This document shows, one piece after another, positions 21,917 through 40,997 of a stretch of 42,676 nt of DNA. The first letter of the stretch is position 1, and each line of letters begins with the position of its first letter. The notes under the pieces were generated by a model. The model saw nothing but the letters and a program-made list of their open reading frames with translations, was not told the DNA's origin and searched no databases. Both the position numbers and the translations under genes were made by a program. Origin of the DNA: Brachyspira pilosicoli (lineage in GTDB: Bacteria; Spirochaetota; Brachyspiria; Brachyspirales; Brachyspiraceae); the NCBI RefSeq assembly GCF_008016535.1, contig NZ_SAXY01000061.1:1-42676 (forward strand). The letters run 5' to 3'.

Positions 21917-22094
21917 AAGTATTATTCTCCTTCGTTTTTAACTTTATATATTTATAAGTTATATTAACTATATTCAAGATATTAACAATAAATTACGCTT
22001 TTATCAAGTAAGTTTTTATAACTCTATTAATAAAACCATTTATATTTTTATCAATAATTTATAAATAATAAAAAATTAATAAAGTTTATATTTC

Positions 22095-22185
22095 TTATTG
22101 TTCTTTTTCCCGCGTACGAGCTGTACCACCTTACCGCACGGTAATGCTATGCTTTAATTATAACTTATTAGTCGTGCGGGGGAGT
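22095..22185. repeat. GC-rich intergenic repeat (TTATTGTTCTTTTTCCCGC and CCGCACG modules)
   Basis: In otherwise very AT-rich DNA, 22095-22113 is identical for 19 bases to 36345-36363. It is followed by CCGCACG (22134-22140) and its complement CGTGCGG (22173-22179). The rest of this roughly 480-base gap between fabD and the DUF4340 gene is AT-rich, and I see nothing else in it. Confidence 0.75.
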
Positions 22186-22398
22186 GCATTTTAATGTACA
22201 ATTAAATGTTGTAGCTAAAATATAATATTTTTATTCATTTATGGTAATATAGTAAGTACATATATTAATGACAAAGTATAAAATATCAAAATAAATATAA
22301 TTGTTTAAATAATATATAATGCTATACTTCTAAATGCTTTACAATTTTGTTTATTTTTGTATAATAAATTTTAAATTTAAAAAATGGAGAATAATTTG

Positions 22399-26483: not shown

Positions 26484-26681
26484 CCCCGCCCTTTATATTT
26501 ATTGCCTAAAATAAAAAATATAGTCTCTATTTTCTTATCAGATAATTAAGAATTATAAGCTGCCCGCCCAAGCTTTTTGAAATTTAAAAGACTCTCAACC
26601 GCACGTTAAATTAAACAAAAAACATAATAAAATTTATATTCTAATCTTGTTAATATAGTTTATTTTATACAGCGTGCGGTG
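26484..26681 (+). repeat. Composite intergenic element, copy A: four GC-rich blocks at fixed spacing
   Basis: Blocks CCCGCCCTTTAT (26485), CCCGCCCAAG (26563), CCGCACGTT (26599) and CGTGCGGTG (26673) stand in AT-rich DNA. The same blocks in the same order occur on the minus strand at 31514-31318; block-to-block distances are 78, 37 and 73 here against 77, 38 and 73 there. The third and fourth blocks are complementary to each other. Confidence 0.75.
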
Positions 26682-26728: not shown

Positions 26729-26756
26729 AAACCCAATTTAAGTTTATGCCGATAGA
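26729..26756 (+). promoter_or_regulatory. Sigma-28-like promoter of flaB
   Basis: TAAA (26729-26732), 16 bases, then GCCGATAG (26749-26756). The flagellar sigma-28 consensus is TAAA-N15-GCCGATAA, so this is one base longer in spacing and one base off in the -10 box. It lies about 250 bases before the flagellin start, giving a long leader. Confidence 0.75.
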
Positions 26757-26777
26757 GCCGAGAACTAATATATAGAA

Positions 26778-26977
26778 AAACGAAGGTCCAAAGATTTGGC
26801 GGTCTCGAACCTTTCGTTTTTATTATTAATTGATAAACCATATTTAGGTATTTTTATTTGCAGATAAAAATGCCTTGAGAGTTTATGACTTACCAAAAAC
26901 CTTAATTTGTTTAAAATCTCGGAAAGTCATAAATTCTCTTTAATATTTTTTTGCCAATTAGGCACGGATGCCTTTTT
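26778..26977 (+). promoter_or_regulatory. Structured leader of flaB with four hairpins
   Basis: Hairpin 1: AAAACGAAGGT (26778) with ACCTTTCGTTTT (to 26821). Hairpin 2: AGGTATTTTTAT (26846-26857) with ATAAAAATGCCT (26864-26875). Hairpin 3: 15 bp, 26877-26891 with 26924-26938, one G-U pair, then a T7 run. Hairpin 4: AGGCA-CGGA-TGCCT (26960-26973) then T-run. In hairpin 4 GGCA can instead pair with TGCC at 26952-26955, so two pairings exclude each other, as in attenuators. No known riboswitch family is recognised. Confidence 0.6.
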
Positions 26978-27003
26978 GAATAAATATATCAGGGAGGATG
27001 ACA

Positions 27004-27864
27004 ATGATCATCAATAATAATATCAGTGCAGTAAATGCACAACGTACTTTAAAATTTAGGAATGTAGACCTTTCTAAAGATATGTCAACTTTAGCTTCTG
27101 GTATGAGAATTAACAGAGCTGGAGATGATGCTTCTGGATTAGCAGTATCAGAAAAAATGCGTACACAAATTCGCGGTTTACGTCAAGCTGAAAGAAATAC
27201 TCAAGATGGTATATCTTTCATTCAAACTACTGAAGGTTACCTTCAAGAAAGTCAAGACATCTTACAAAGAATTCGTGAATTAGCTGTACAATCTGCTAAC
27301 GGTATCTATACTGATGATGACAGAATGCTCATTCAAGTTGAAGTTTCTCAATTAGTAGATGAAGTTAATCGTATTGCTAGTCAAGCTCAGTTTAACACTC
27401 TTAATATGCTTACTGGTAGATTTGCTGATCCTAATGCCGGCGGAAACCCTGCTGCAAGTATGTGGTTTCACATGGGAGCTAATATGGACGAAAGAAGAAG
27501 AGTTTATATAGGTACTATGACTGCTGCTGCTTTAGGTTTACAAAATGCTAATGACGGTACTAGCCTTTCTATTTCTTCTATTGACAGTGCTAATACTGCT
27601 ATAGGTTTATTAGACGAAGCTTTAATGAAAGTTTCTAAACAAAGATCTAATCTTGGTGCTTATCAAAACAGATTAGAGCTTACTGCTCAAGGTTTGATGA
27701 TAGGTTATGAAAACACTATGGCTTCTGAAAGCAGAATAAGAGATACAGATATGGCTGAAGCTTCTGTTAAATTTGCTAAAGATCAAATACTTAGTCAAAC
27801 TAACTTAGCTATGCTTGCTCAAGCTAACACTATAACTCAAGGTGTATTACGCTTAGTTCAATGA
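27004..27864 (+). CDS. flaB: Flagellin, periplasmic flagellar core protein FlaB
   Basis: 286 residues from the ATG at 27004; an earlier in-frame ATG at 26998 touches the GGGAGG ribosome site, so it is not the start. The N-terminus [16 protein letters not shown] and the C-terminus ([11 protein letters not shown] ... [16 protein letters not shown]) are the conserved D0/D1 helices that build the filament. The central part is short, without the variable D2/D3 domains, as in spirochaete core flagellins. The product forms the core of the filaments that lie between the membranes and drive motility. A strong terminator follows. Confidence 0.96.
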
Positions 27865-30137: not shown

Positions 30138-31292
30138 ATGAAAAAACTAATATTTATTCTTCTTTTTTTTAATTGTTTAGCACTCTACGCACAATCACCA
30201 TATTCTGAGAAAGAACAGAGATTACTGAAAGGCGTAATAAATGTTTGGCCGTATATAGGTTTAGAGCCTATTAGACCAACTACATCATATATACCTTATG
30301 ATTATATACATGAAAGCTATAAAAGAGATAATCCAGACCCTAGAATTTTCTCTTCCAGATTATTATATGAATTATCAACTATAGAGCTTCATATGAATAC
30401 TGTTATAGGAGTAAATTTAAAAAACGGAAACTTTTCTATGCCTAACATGTATTTTTCTGTGGGAAAAAGTTTTCATTATGATTGGATATTTTCTGCAACT
30501 CCTTTTGTAACACTTTCAAGCAAATTAAATGTGTTTAGTGAAAATGGAAAAGTTAAGGCTAATGGAAACATAGAGGTTTATGATGCTGGTATAGAAACTG
30601 TAACATTAACAAGGCTTTTATTATCTTTTAGAATGAGAGCTGTTAATGATATTAATGAATCTACTTTTATGCTTTTGCCTTCTGTGGTTGATAGCTCTAC
30701 TAAAAGTTTTGAAGATGTTCCGCATTGGTATTTACCGAGGATAAACAATGCTATGGGGTTTAGAACTGGGTTTATTGGGCATTATTATGAGATTTCTTAT
30801 TCTCAAGGATTTACTGAAAACTCTTCTCCTTTGGCTGCGGTTTTTAAAATTAATGGAGATTATTTTAAATTACAATTTTTGTATCAGTACAATAAAAAAT
30901 CTTCTCTCTCTCCAGAGGCTTTCGATAATAACAATATTAATTATTATAATGATTATACTCATCATATAATACAGCTTTATGCTATGGGAAGAGTGCCTTT
31001 CTTAAATAATGAACTATGGCTTAATATGCTTGGAGAGTATACTTGGAGGGACAATGATGCTCATTATTTAAGGTTTGAATTAGGGCTTGAATGGAAAATG
31101 CTTAATATTGCAATACGTCCTTTGTTTTATATACCTATTGAACATGATGATGATAACAGAAATAGATTTGATAAAAGTAAGGATTTATTTTGTTTAGAAT
31201 ATAGTGCTTATGTAAAATTTGACCCTATTTACTTTGGTTTTCAAGGCTCAACAGATGGAAGATATTATATAGCTATGAAGGCTTTATTTTAA
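30138..31292 (+). CDS. Outer-membrane beta-barrel-like protein, unknown function
   Basis: 384 residues with a signal peptide (1-18, LALYAQ) and an early WPYIGLEPIRPTTSYIPYDYIHE segment, then about 14-16 amphipathic strands with aromatic ends (HYYEISYSQGF, YFKLQFLYQYNKK, AHYLRFELGLEWKM) and the final GRYYIAMKALF with terminal Phe. No family is recognised. It is divergent from the ZapB-like gene and is followed by the second copy of the composite intergenic element. The ribosome site is not evident; the ATG is chosen because the signal peptide starts there. Confidence 0.75.
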   Translation: MKKLIFILLFFNCLALYAQSPYSEKEQRLLKGVINVWPYIGLEPIRPTTSYIPYDYIHESYKRDNPDPRIFSSRLLYELSTIELHMNTVIGVNLKNGNFSMPNMYFSVGKSFHYDWIFSATPFVTLSSKLNVFSENGKVKANGNIEVYDAGIETVTLTRLLLSFRMRAVNDINESTFMLLPSVVDSSTKSFEDVPHWYLPRINNAMGFRTGFIGHYYEISYSQGFTENSSPLAAVFKINGDYFKLQFLYQYNKKSSLSPEAFDNNNINYYNDYTHHIIQLYAMGRVPFLNNELWLNMLGEYTWRDNDAHYLRFELGLEWKMLNIAIRPLFYIPIEHDDDNRNRFDKSKDLFCLEYSAYVKFDPIYFGFQGSTDGRYYIAMKALF

Positions 31293-31317: not shown

Positions 31318-31514
31318 CACCGCACGTTAAACAAAATTTTTTAATTAAATTAGTTAACAATACAAATTTTATTAAATAATAAAGTCCGCTAACCGTGCGT
31401 TAAATAGATTTTTTTATTTAATAAAAACTTGGGCGGGAGTTAACATTTCTAAATAAGCAGTAAAACAATTTAAATTAGAATTTCAATAAAACGCTATAGA
31501 GAATAAAGGGCGGG
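31318..31514 (-). repeat. Composite intergenic element, copy B: four GC-rich blocks at fixed spacing
   Basis: Read on the minus strand: CCCGCCCTTTAT (from 31514), CCCGCCCAAG (from 31437), CGCACGG (from 31399), CGTGCGGTG (from 31326). Order and distances match copy A at 26484-26681, while the AT-rich DNA between the blocks is only loosely similar. It fills the space between a convergent outer-membrane gene and the DUF3226 gene. Confidence 0.75.
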
Positions 31515-31555: not shown

Positions 31556-32215
31556 CTAATTAAATAAATTTTTTAAAAAAACTATAAGTTCATTTAATAC
31601 TTTTGAATCTAAATAATCATTAAATTCCTGAAATAATCCGCCTATAGTATTTCTTTTTTTACATTTTACAGATATAAATGCAAGTATTTTAGATTTTAAT
31701 ATATGAGCTTCATTATCTCCTTGATTAATATAATTATTGGCACAATCAAAAAAATTATTAACACATTCATTATATAAATCTTTATCTTTTTCTAAAATAA
31801 TATCTTCAACTAAACATTCTAAACAGCCAGAAGTTTTATCATTAGTCTTTGTTGTTAGAAATAAGCCTTTATTATCATCATAGTATATATTTTGGTTTGC
31901 ATTATATTCAAGTTTTATAATATCATTAAAAATATTAAATCTTTTTTGAGCATTATCTTCAGCATCTACTAAAATACCGAGTTTTTCTATATTATTATAA
32001 TTAGGGCTTTTTATAAATGAAGTAATGTTGTTTTTATTATCAACTTCATTAATAGGTATAATATGAACAGTATCATTATCTTCTATAAAAGATTTATCAT
32101 ATTTTCCTGTTATATAGTTTAATCCTAATTTTTTACCAATTAAAAGAGAGCATAAATCTCTTTCATCATTACCCTCAACAAGAAGCACTTTTTTAGCCAT
32201 AGGATTATTGAGCAT
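31556..32215 (-). CDS. DUF3226 TOPRIM-like protein, partner of the AAA ATPase
   Basis: 219 residues. The N-terminus KVLLVEGNDERDLC has the TOPRIM glutamate (E14), and GILVDAEDN (80-88) supplies the acidic pair (D84, D87). The CLECLVEDIIL segment (131-141) and the helical C-terminus fit DUF3226. The start is four bases after the ATPase stop, with GAGG inside the end of that gene, so the two are coupled. TOPRIM proteins paired with OLD-type ATPases act as nucleases or toxins in phage-defence systems such as OLD, Gabija and PARIS. A defence role is inferred from architecture and from the neighbouring restriction genes. Confidence 0.8.
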   Translation of the reverse strand: MLNNPMAKKVLLVEGNDERDLCSLLIGKKLGLNYITGKYDKSFIEDNDTVHIIPINEVDNKNNITSFIKSPNYNNIEKLGILVDAEDNAQKRFNIFNDIIKLEYNANQNIYYDDNKGLFLTTKTNDKTSGCLECLVEDIILEKDKDLYNECVNNFFDCANNYINQGDNEAHILKSKILAFISVKCKKRNTIGGLFQEFNDYLDSKVLNELIVFLKNLFN

Positions 32216-40854: not shown

Positions 40855-40920
40855 AGCATAAGCACATTTCCGCACGGATTAGCTTACTCCTGTCGAATGC
40901 CCTCTATACATACGGTTTAT
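40855..40920. repeat. GC-rich intergenic block with CCGCACG motif
   Basis: GAGCATAAGC, CCGCACGG (about 40873) and CTCCTGTCGAATGCCCTC stand in AT-rich DNA between the IS copy and the moxR stop. CCGCACG is the same core as in the 22.1, 26.6 and 31.3 kb elements. Confidence 0.5.
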
Positions 40921-40997
40921 TGCCTATTATCATACAAAATAAAGAAGTTATTTCATAATTTAAATATAAACTAAAATTTATATATACTTACAATTTT

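Follow-up and report, generated by a model that had tools for sequence, protein, structure and literature searches.

Among the intergenic repeats described so far in bacteria, the nearest known kind to the element reported here is the interspersed mosaic repeat of the REP/BIME type. The BOX elements of Streptococcus pneumoniae, which are modular intergenic repeats with a variable number of internal modules and are considered to be RNA-structured and mobilised in trans, also invite comparison, as do the sites of parS/ParB, Noc and similar systems, which are short, specific and repeated across an origin-proximal domain. As for REPs and BIMEs, found in enterobacteria and pseudomonads, they are described as binding sites for several proteins (PMC2817692).

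The element in question was found in Brachyspira pilosicoli, in a stretch of 42 676 nucleotides (contig NZ_SAXY01000061.1, hereafter the window), and is made of short GC-rich cores arranged in arrays. With REPs and BIMEs these arrays share an intergenic location, more than 100 copies, regular spacing, alternating orientation and a mosaic make-up. They are nevertheless unlike REPs and BIMEs in having no individual stem-forming palindrome and no covariation of bases across the dyad, and in having a period of ~346 bp, short GC cores set in a fixed grammar and a clustering around the origin. Membership of the RAYT/REP group was considered and rejected on two counts, the missing stem-forming character and the missing transposase: the Y1 transposase TnpA_REP/RAYT (PF01797) was detected in 0/29 genomes, 5/14 control genomes being positive. 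For BOX, which was compared by description only, RNA structure and mobility in trans are a poor match for arrays that show no covariation and whose cores are constrained in place. The parS/ParB and Noc systems have other motifs and consist of single sites rather than ordered arrays; a Pfam search found exactly one ParB per genome, array-free genomes included, and a ParB paralogue or Noc-like second copy was therefore rejected as a candidate, none tracking the arrays. MITEs are similarly intergenic, non-coding and of high copy number, with an inverted-repeat character, but the arrays have no defined ends, target-site duplication was not seen in the pairs viewed and, instead of drifting neutrally after insertion, the cores are selected (1.4% divergence versus ~24% for spacer G/C). 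No known family fits the arrays, since the REP/BIME transposase is absent and Rfam is without a match. What they do present are duplex-DNA sites under selection at fixed positions and non-randomly placed with respect to the origin, as in the class of chromosome-organising arrays of protein sites.

Array copies in the window

The window contains two copies of the array. Copy 1 (26485–26681, plus strand) lies 5' of a flagellin gene (26998–27864, plus strand) and reads A> 78 A> 37 H> 73 <H, where A stands for CCC[G/A]CCC, H for CGCACG, and > and < for orientation. Its first A core, CCCGCCC (26485–26491), is followed by TTTAT, and then come the second A core CCCGCCCAAG (26563–26572), the left H core CGCACG (26600–26605) and the right H core CGTGCG (26673–26678), itself followed by GTG. 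Copy 2 (31318–31514, minus strand) is flanked by convergent ORFs at 30138–31292 (plus strand) and 31556–32215 (minus strand, DUF3226), and its cores, all given on the minus strand, are CCCGCCC (31508–31514), CCCGCCCAAG (31428–31437), CGCACG (31394–31399) and CGTGCG (31321–31326), with block starts at 31514, 31437, 31399 and 31326. The preliminary description had reported four blocks in the same order in both copies, with distances between block starts of 78/37/73 and 77/38/73, and all of this is borne out. The two copies are not the product of chance: CCCGCCC was seen five times in the window versus 0.15 expected and CGTGCGG six times versus 0.11, and an ordered four-block chain with spacing tolerance has an iid expectation of ~1.5e-13 per window versus the two observed. 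Orthologues of copy 2, with intact cores, are present at the matching site in genome G012, to which the aligned stretch is 88% identical, and in G004, where identity is 72% and the array is longer. The array of copy 1 is absent from the orthologous intergenic region in another Brachyspira (L078).

Some other features of the window deserve mention. A shorter inverted pair, CCGCACG..CGTGCGG, 39 bp apart at 22100–22190, stands beside CCCGCGTACGAGCTGTACC in the intergenic region 21917–22383 and is off the array grammar. An isolated GC-rich stretch, TTTCCGCACGGATTAGCTTACTCCTGTCGAATGCCC, lies between genes at 40865–40925 and has a single CCGCACG that belongs to no array. A long leader (26740–26998), possibly an RNA element, precedes the flagellin gene at 26998, and in it CGAAGGTCC..GAACCTTTCG form a strong inverted repeat; the upstream region of this gene is 84% conserved in L078 from 26705 on.

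Architecture of the arrays

The four blocks had originally been regarded as one composite element. The blocks are real, but this frame is too small, as the alternating array to which they belong is longer, a point missed in the preliminary description, and either half (A–A or H–H) can stand alone. The unit of the array is H>-74-<H-36-<A-78-<A-43-A>-78-A>-37-H>, with a period of ~346 bp. An unbiased listing of all neighbouring motif pairs at most 100 bp apart, drawn from 400 kb of G004, gave ~190 pairs, of which only a few depart from this grammar by more than 1–2 bp. The H>..<H pairs were found at 72–75 bp (44/44), A>..A> at 77–80 bp (32/32), <A..<A at 76–79 bp (33/34), A>..H> at 36–39 bp (31/31), <H..<A at 35–37 bp (23/25) and <A..A> at 41–49 bp (18/18). 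The last of these distances is bimodal (41–43 and 47–49), which implies that strict helical phasing is not required. Random spacing between blocks, which the preliminary description had held would count against it, is not what was found, block spacings being tightly fixed across the genus. Pseudo-two-fold centres H..H and A..A alternate along the array, whose layout is identical when read from either strand, and array ends fall at differing modules, single A–A or H–H modules also existing.

Between the cores, spacers retain a mean pairwise identity within a genome of 0.54–0.55 versus 0.39 when shuffled. In H modules, ATATAA occurs at +22 from CGCACG in 98/376 cases and TATAAT at +23 in 56/376, versus ~2.6 expected per offset for TATAAT, while the spacers of A modules contain a weaker conserved sub-site resembling ...GCTTAATTAGAAATT.... 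The fourth A base displays a G/T asymmetry that marks the polarity of the array, left arms being mostly CCCGCCC and right arms mostly GGGTGGG. In the G010/G015 clade, left and right A–A arms form two distinct subtypes, with spacing still near 79–80 bp, which again indicates that arrays have polarity; one of these subtypes contains an inverted repeat, TAGATTTAA..TTAAATCTA. A 10.5-bp phasing of the spacers was considered and rejected, as the top GC periodicity in A modules is ~9 bp, with no clean helical repeat, and comes mostly from two internal sub-sites 37 bp apart. A coding repeat was also rejected: the A–A distance of 78 is divisible by 3, yet 77 and 79 are common and stops are present.

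Distribution

The preliminary description had proposed a pattern search for further copies, and in the genome of origin (2.755 Mb in 113 contigs; 27.7% G+C in the window) this returned 11 CCCGCCC..CCCGCCCAAG pairs and ~30 distinct CGCACG..CGTGCGG pairs, with 0 for a reversed-pattern control. Among 29 genomes of the family, H–H pairs were found in 24 and A–A–H chains in 23, all of them Brachyspira, and no arrays were found in two neighbouring genera. Within Brachyspira, arrays are present in 23–24 of 26 genomes, with up to ~130–140 pattern matches per genome, and are absent or nearly absent from three (G001, G003 and G019), which means that the genus can do without their function. When 84 980 species were scanned, the 45 stretches recovered all belonged to Brachyspira (hampsonii, innocens, alvinipulli, pilosicoli and uncultured species). 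A phage, plasmid or viral source was rejected, as there were no matches in IMG/VR or in phage and plasmid collections.

Many arrays occupy the matching place in different species, copy 2 of the window included. Some arrays have gained or lost one whole period (~340 bp) in G004 relative to its sister genome G005, and there is occupied/empty polymorphism as well, exemplified by a 548-bp block in L081 that is absent from both G004 and G005. Occupied/empty junctions are ragged and without target-site duplication in the cases viewed, which include few clean empty sites. The array family seems to be undescribed, as had been claimed: literature searches returned no description and the Brachyspira genome papers searched do not mention it, a provisional result because subscription papers were mostly outside that search.

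Selection on the cores

Selective constraint was measured in 17 orthologous arrays that G004 and G005 share and that were anchored by their flanks. Only 7/494 core bases differ (1.4%); the case for strong constraint comes mainly from this one species pair and from arrays picked by intact motifs in G004. G/C differences between the same genomes amount to ~24% in the spacers, 17–20% in other noncoding DNA and ~7% in coding DNA, and the contrast between cores and spacers is highly significant (Fisher p=7e-31). The degenerate fourth A base differs in 10/55 cases (18%) and is thus free to vary. Spacer indels, mostly of 1 bp, number 6.1 per kb versus 10.9 per kb in other noncoding DNA. Four other species pairs agree in direction (15/100 versus 57/129 G/C bases, p=2e-6). 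It is unlikely that picking arrays by intact G004 motifs caused the low core divergence, because the flanks determined which places in G005 were scored for divergence and because mutation pressure in this AT-rich genome should speed rather than slow the divergence of G/C cores relative to spacers. The cores are therefore under strong selection in fixed orthologous copies. The selection on structure invoked in the preliminary description, as an RNA fold or a protein scaffold, consequently survives in its second form, cores being constrained in orthologous copies and spacing kept, but not in its first.

Placement relative to genes and to the origin

In 400 kb of G004, none of 47 arrays lies inside an ORF. 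The 49 convergent intergenic regions hold 16 arrays, the 53 divergent ones 11 and the 214 tandem ones 20, with several arrays in a few of the regions, which corresponds to an enrichment in convergent versus tandem regions (p=1e-4). They are found near stop codons, often starting 12–30 bp past a stop, and their placement is not strand-specific.

On a larger scale, arrays are strongly clustered along the chromosome and concentrate in the half opposite dnaA, with Rayleigh p values of 3e-7 to 4e-15 in three genomes. Array positions in G004 have a circular mean of 1.63 Mb, and in this genome the skew at third codon positions switches from negative to positive at ~1.73 Mb, a position read from sampled tiles rather than a complete skew plot; 54/67 collapsed arrays lie within 0.5 Mb of this switch, i.e. 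in 31% of the chromosome. Clustering in G010 is like that in G004. The location opposite dnaA had raised the suspicion of clustering at the terminus, which was rejected since oriC in Brachyspira has been found to track GC skew and to lie away from dnaA (PMC3532143); together with the skew switch, this indicates that arrays are centred on the origin. It is also in the origin-proximal region that the gene content of Brachyspira chromosomes varies (PMC3532143), so that clustering could partly reflect tolerance. As an aside, dnaA and parB are roughly 0.7–1.1 Mb apart (2,956,816 and 844,961 in G004; 207 and 681,934 in G010; 1,329,691 and 2,416,972 in G009), dnaA lying close to the skew switch that is opposite the origin region rich in arrays. 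Another observation in G004 (~160–180 kb) is a single open frame of 6,451 aa that fills nearly a whole 20-kb tile (L169, 516–19871, minus strand).

Alternative explanations

The element might be a structured non-coding RNA or an mRNA element, in which the third and fourth blocks close a hairpin; the preliminary description had noted that these blocks could close a loop of about 65 bases, and CGCACG and CGTGCG are indeed complementary, with a consensus that is palindromic further in. The positions that would pair, however, vary independently. In 86 oriented H modules, Watson–Crick pairs over 32 inner positions of the hairpin number 14.98 versus 15.05 expected from column frequencies, and over 40 outer positions 16.74 versus 17.54; pairing is also at the column-marginal expectation in 38 symmetric H modules, and the palindrome at the A–A centre gives 7.24 versus 8.09. 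No covarying 5-bp stem in A or H modules was clearly above a permutation null, and the compensating changes for which the preliminary description had proposed a test were not found; an early impression of such changes, with a G–U preference at the fourth A base, did not withstand the test of pairing independence. In addition, the grammar is equal on both strands, which suits duplex DNA but not an RNA, placement is without strand preference, and a search of the site for CRISPR, tRNA and Rfam families returned nothing. An RNA element is thus barely credible. Since paired positions are independent, the palindrome belongs to the consensus and not to single copies, as in sites for dimeric proteins on duplex DNA, and this lack of covariation, combined with the low divergence of the cores, argues against both an RNA hairpin and decaying mobile DNA and in favour of duplex-DNA sites.

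A selfish or mobile mosaic repeat, similar to a MITE or BOX, would account for the many copies, the modular truncated forms, the whole-period gains and losses between species and the occupied/empty polymorphism, if a transposase acting in trans had spread modules whose cores are its binding sites and whose regular spacing is left over from an element that was once active. Against this, fixed copies do not decay, junctions are ragged with no target-site duplication in the cases viewed, no transposase-coding array was seen, the Y1/RAYT enzyme is missing from all 29 genomes, and phage, plasmid and viral collections hold no copies. This explanation is therefore unlikely. The absence of decay in fixed copies makes a purely mobile origin less likely, even if duplication or transposition may well have spread the family in the past. 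The AT-rich hexamers at +22 and +23 in H modules, and the position of copy 1 upstream of a flagellin gene, would suit transcriptional control, in which CGCACG and a AATATAAT-like box 16–17 bp further in would act in both directions as a promoter-like site, recognised by an alternative sigma factor or an activator. Yet two such sites face each other within every H module, A modules exist without H, and arrays are enriched between convergent genes and near stop rather than start codons, which makes a promoter role quite unlikely. Placement at 3' ends and between convergent genes would suit loading sites for gyrase or another topoisomerase that would relieve supercoiling in the wake of transcription units, a role proposed for BIME-2 of E. 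coli, and the mosaic layout of alternating orientation, with AT-rich DNA between cores, points the same way. We know of no such lattice of 6–7 bp GC cores at gyrase sites in E. coli, and related species without arrays must nonetheless have gyrase, so that this analogy, which would be a special case of an array of protein sites, has only a slim chance of being correct.

A putative nucleoprotein array around the origin

On balance, we favour, with moderate confidence, the view that the element belongs to an intergenic array, specific to the genus, of putative binding sites for an assembly of sequence-specific DNA-binding proteins. A protein, probably dimeric or oligomeric, would bind the GC cores, and the resulting two-fold symmetric assembly would bend or wrap the AT-rich DNA between them. 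With less certainty, such assemblies might organise the origin-proximal chromosome, whether by folding the nucleoid, insulating supercoils behind gene ends or segregating the origin. Chromosome organisation around the origin fits the placement, spacing and copy number of the arrays and their dispensability in some species. No canonical HU/IHF gene (Pfam PF00216) was found in any Brachyspira genome (G000–G025), only weak partial matches of ~50 residues inside long frames (mostly 530–650 aa) in some genomes. HU was accordingly rejected as the binder, and this apparent lack leaves room for another architectural protein. It is conceivable, if rather doubtful, that most Brachyspira possess an ordered nucleoprotein scaffold in which hundreds of short sites form a two-fold-symmetric intergenic lattice over ~1 Mb around oriC, built by a lineage-specific architectural protein.

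Were this scaffold real, it would represent a previously unknown kind of bacterial chromatin element, in bacteria apparently without HU/IHF. Brachyspira are spirochaetes that include animal and human gut pathogens, with an oriC oddly apart from dnaA, and the family of intergenic sites that runs through the genus is under tighter constraint between species than are G/C positions in coding DNA. The three array-free species allow a direct comparison, and the array itself offers a bait for its binding protein. If the arrays do organise the origin region, they would embody a new way of building bacterial chromosome architecture.
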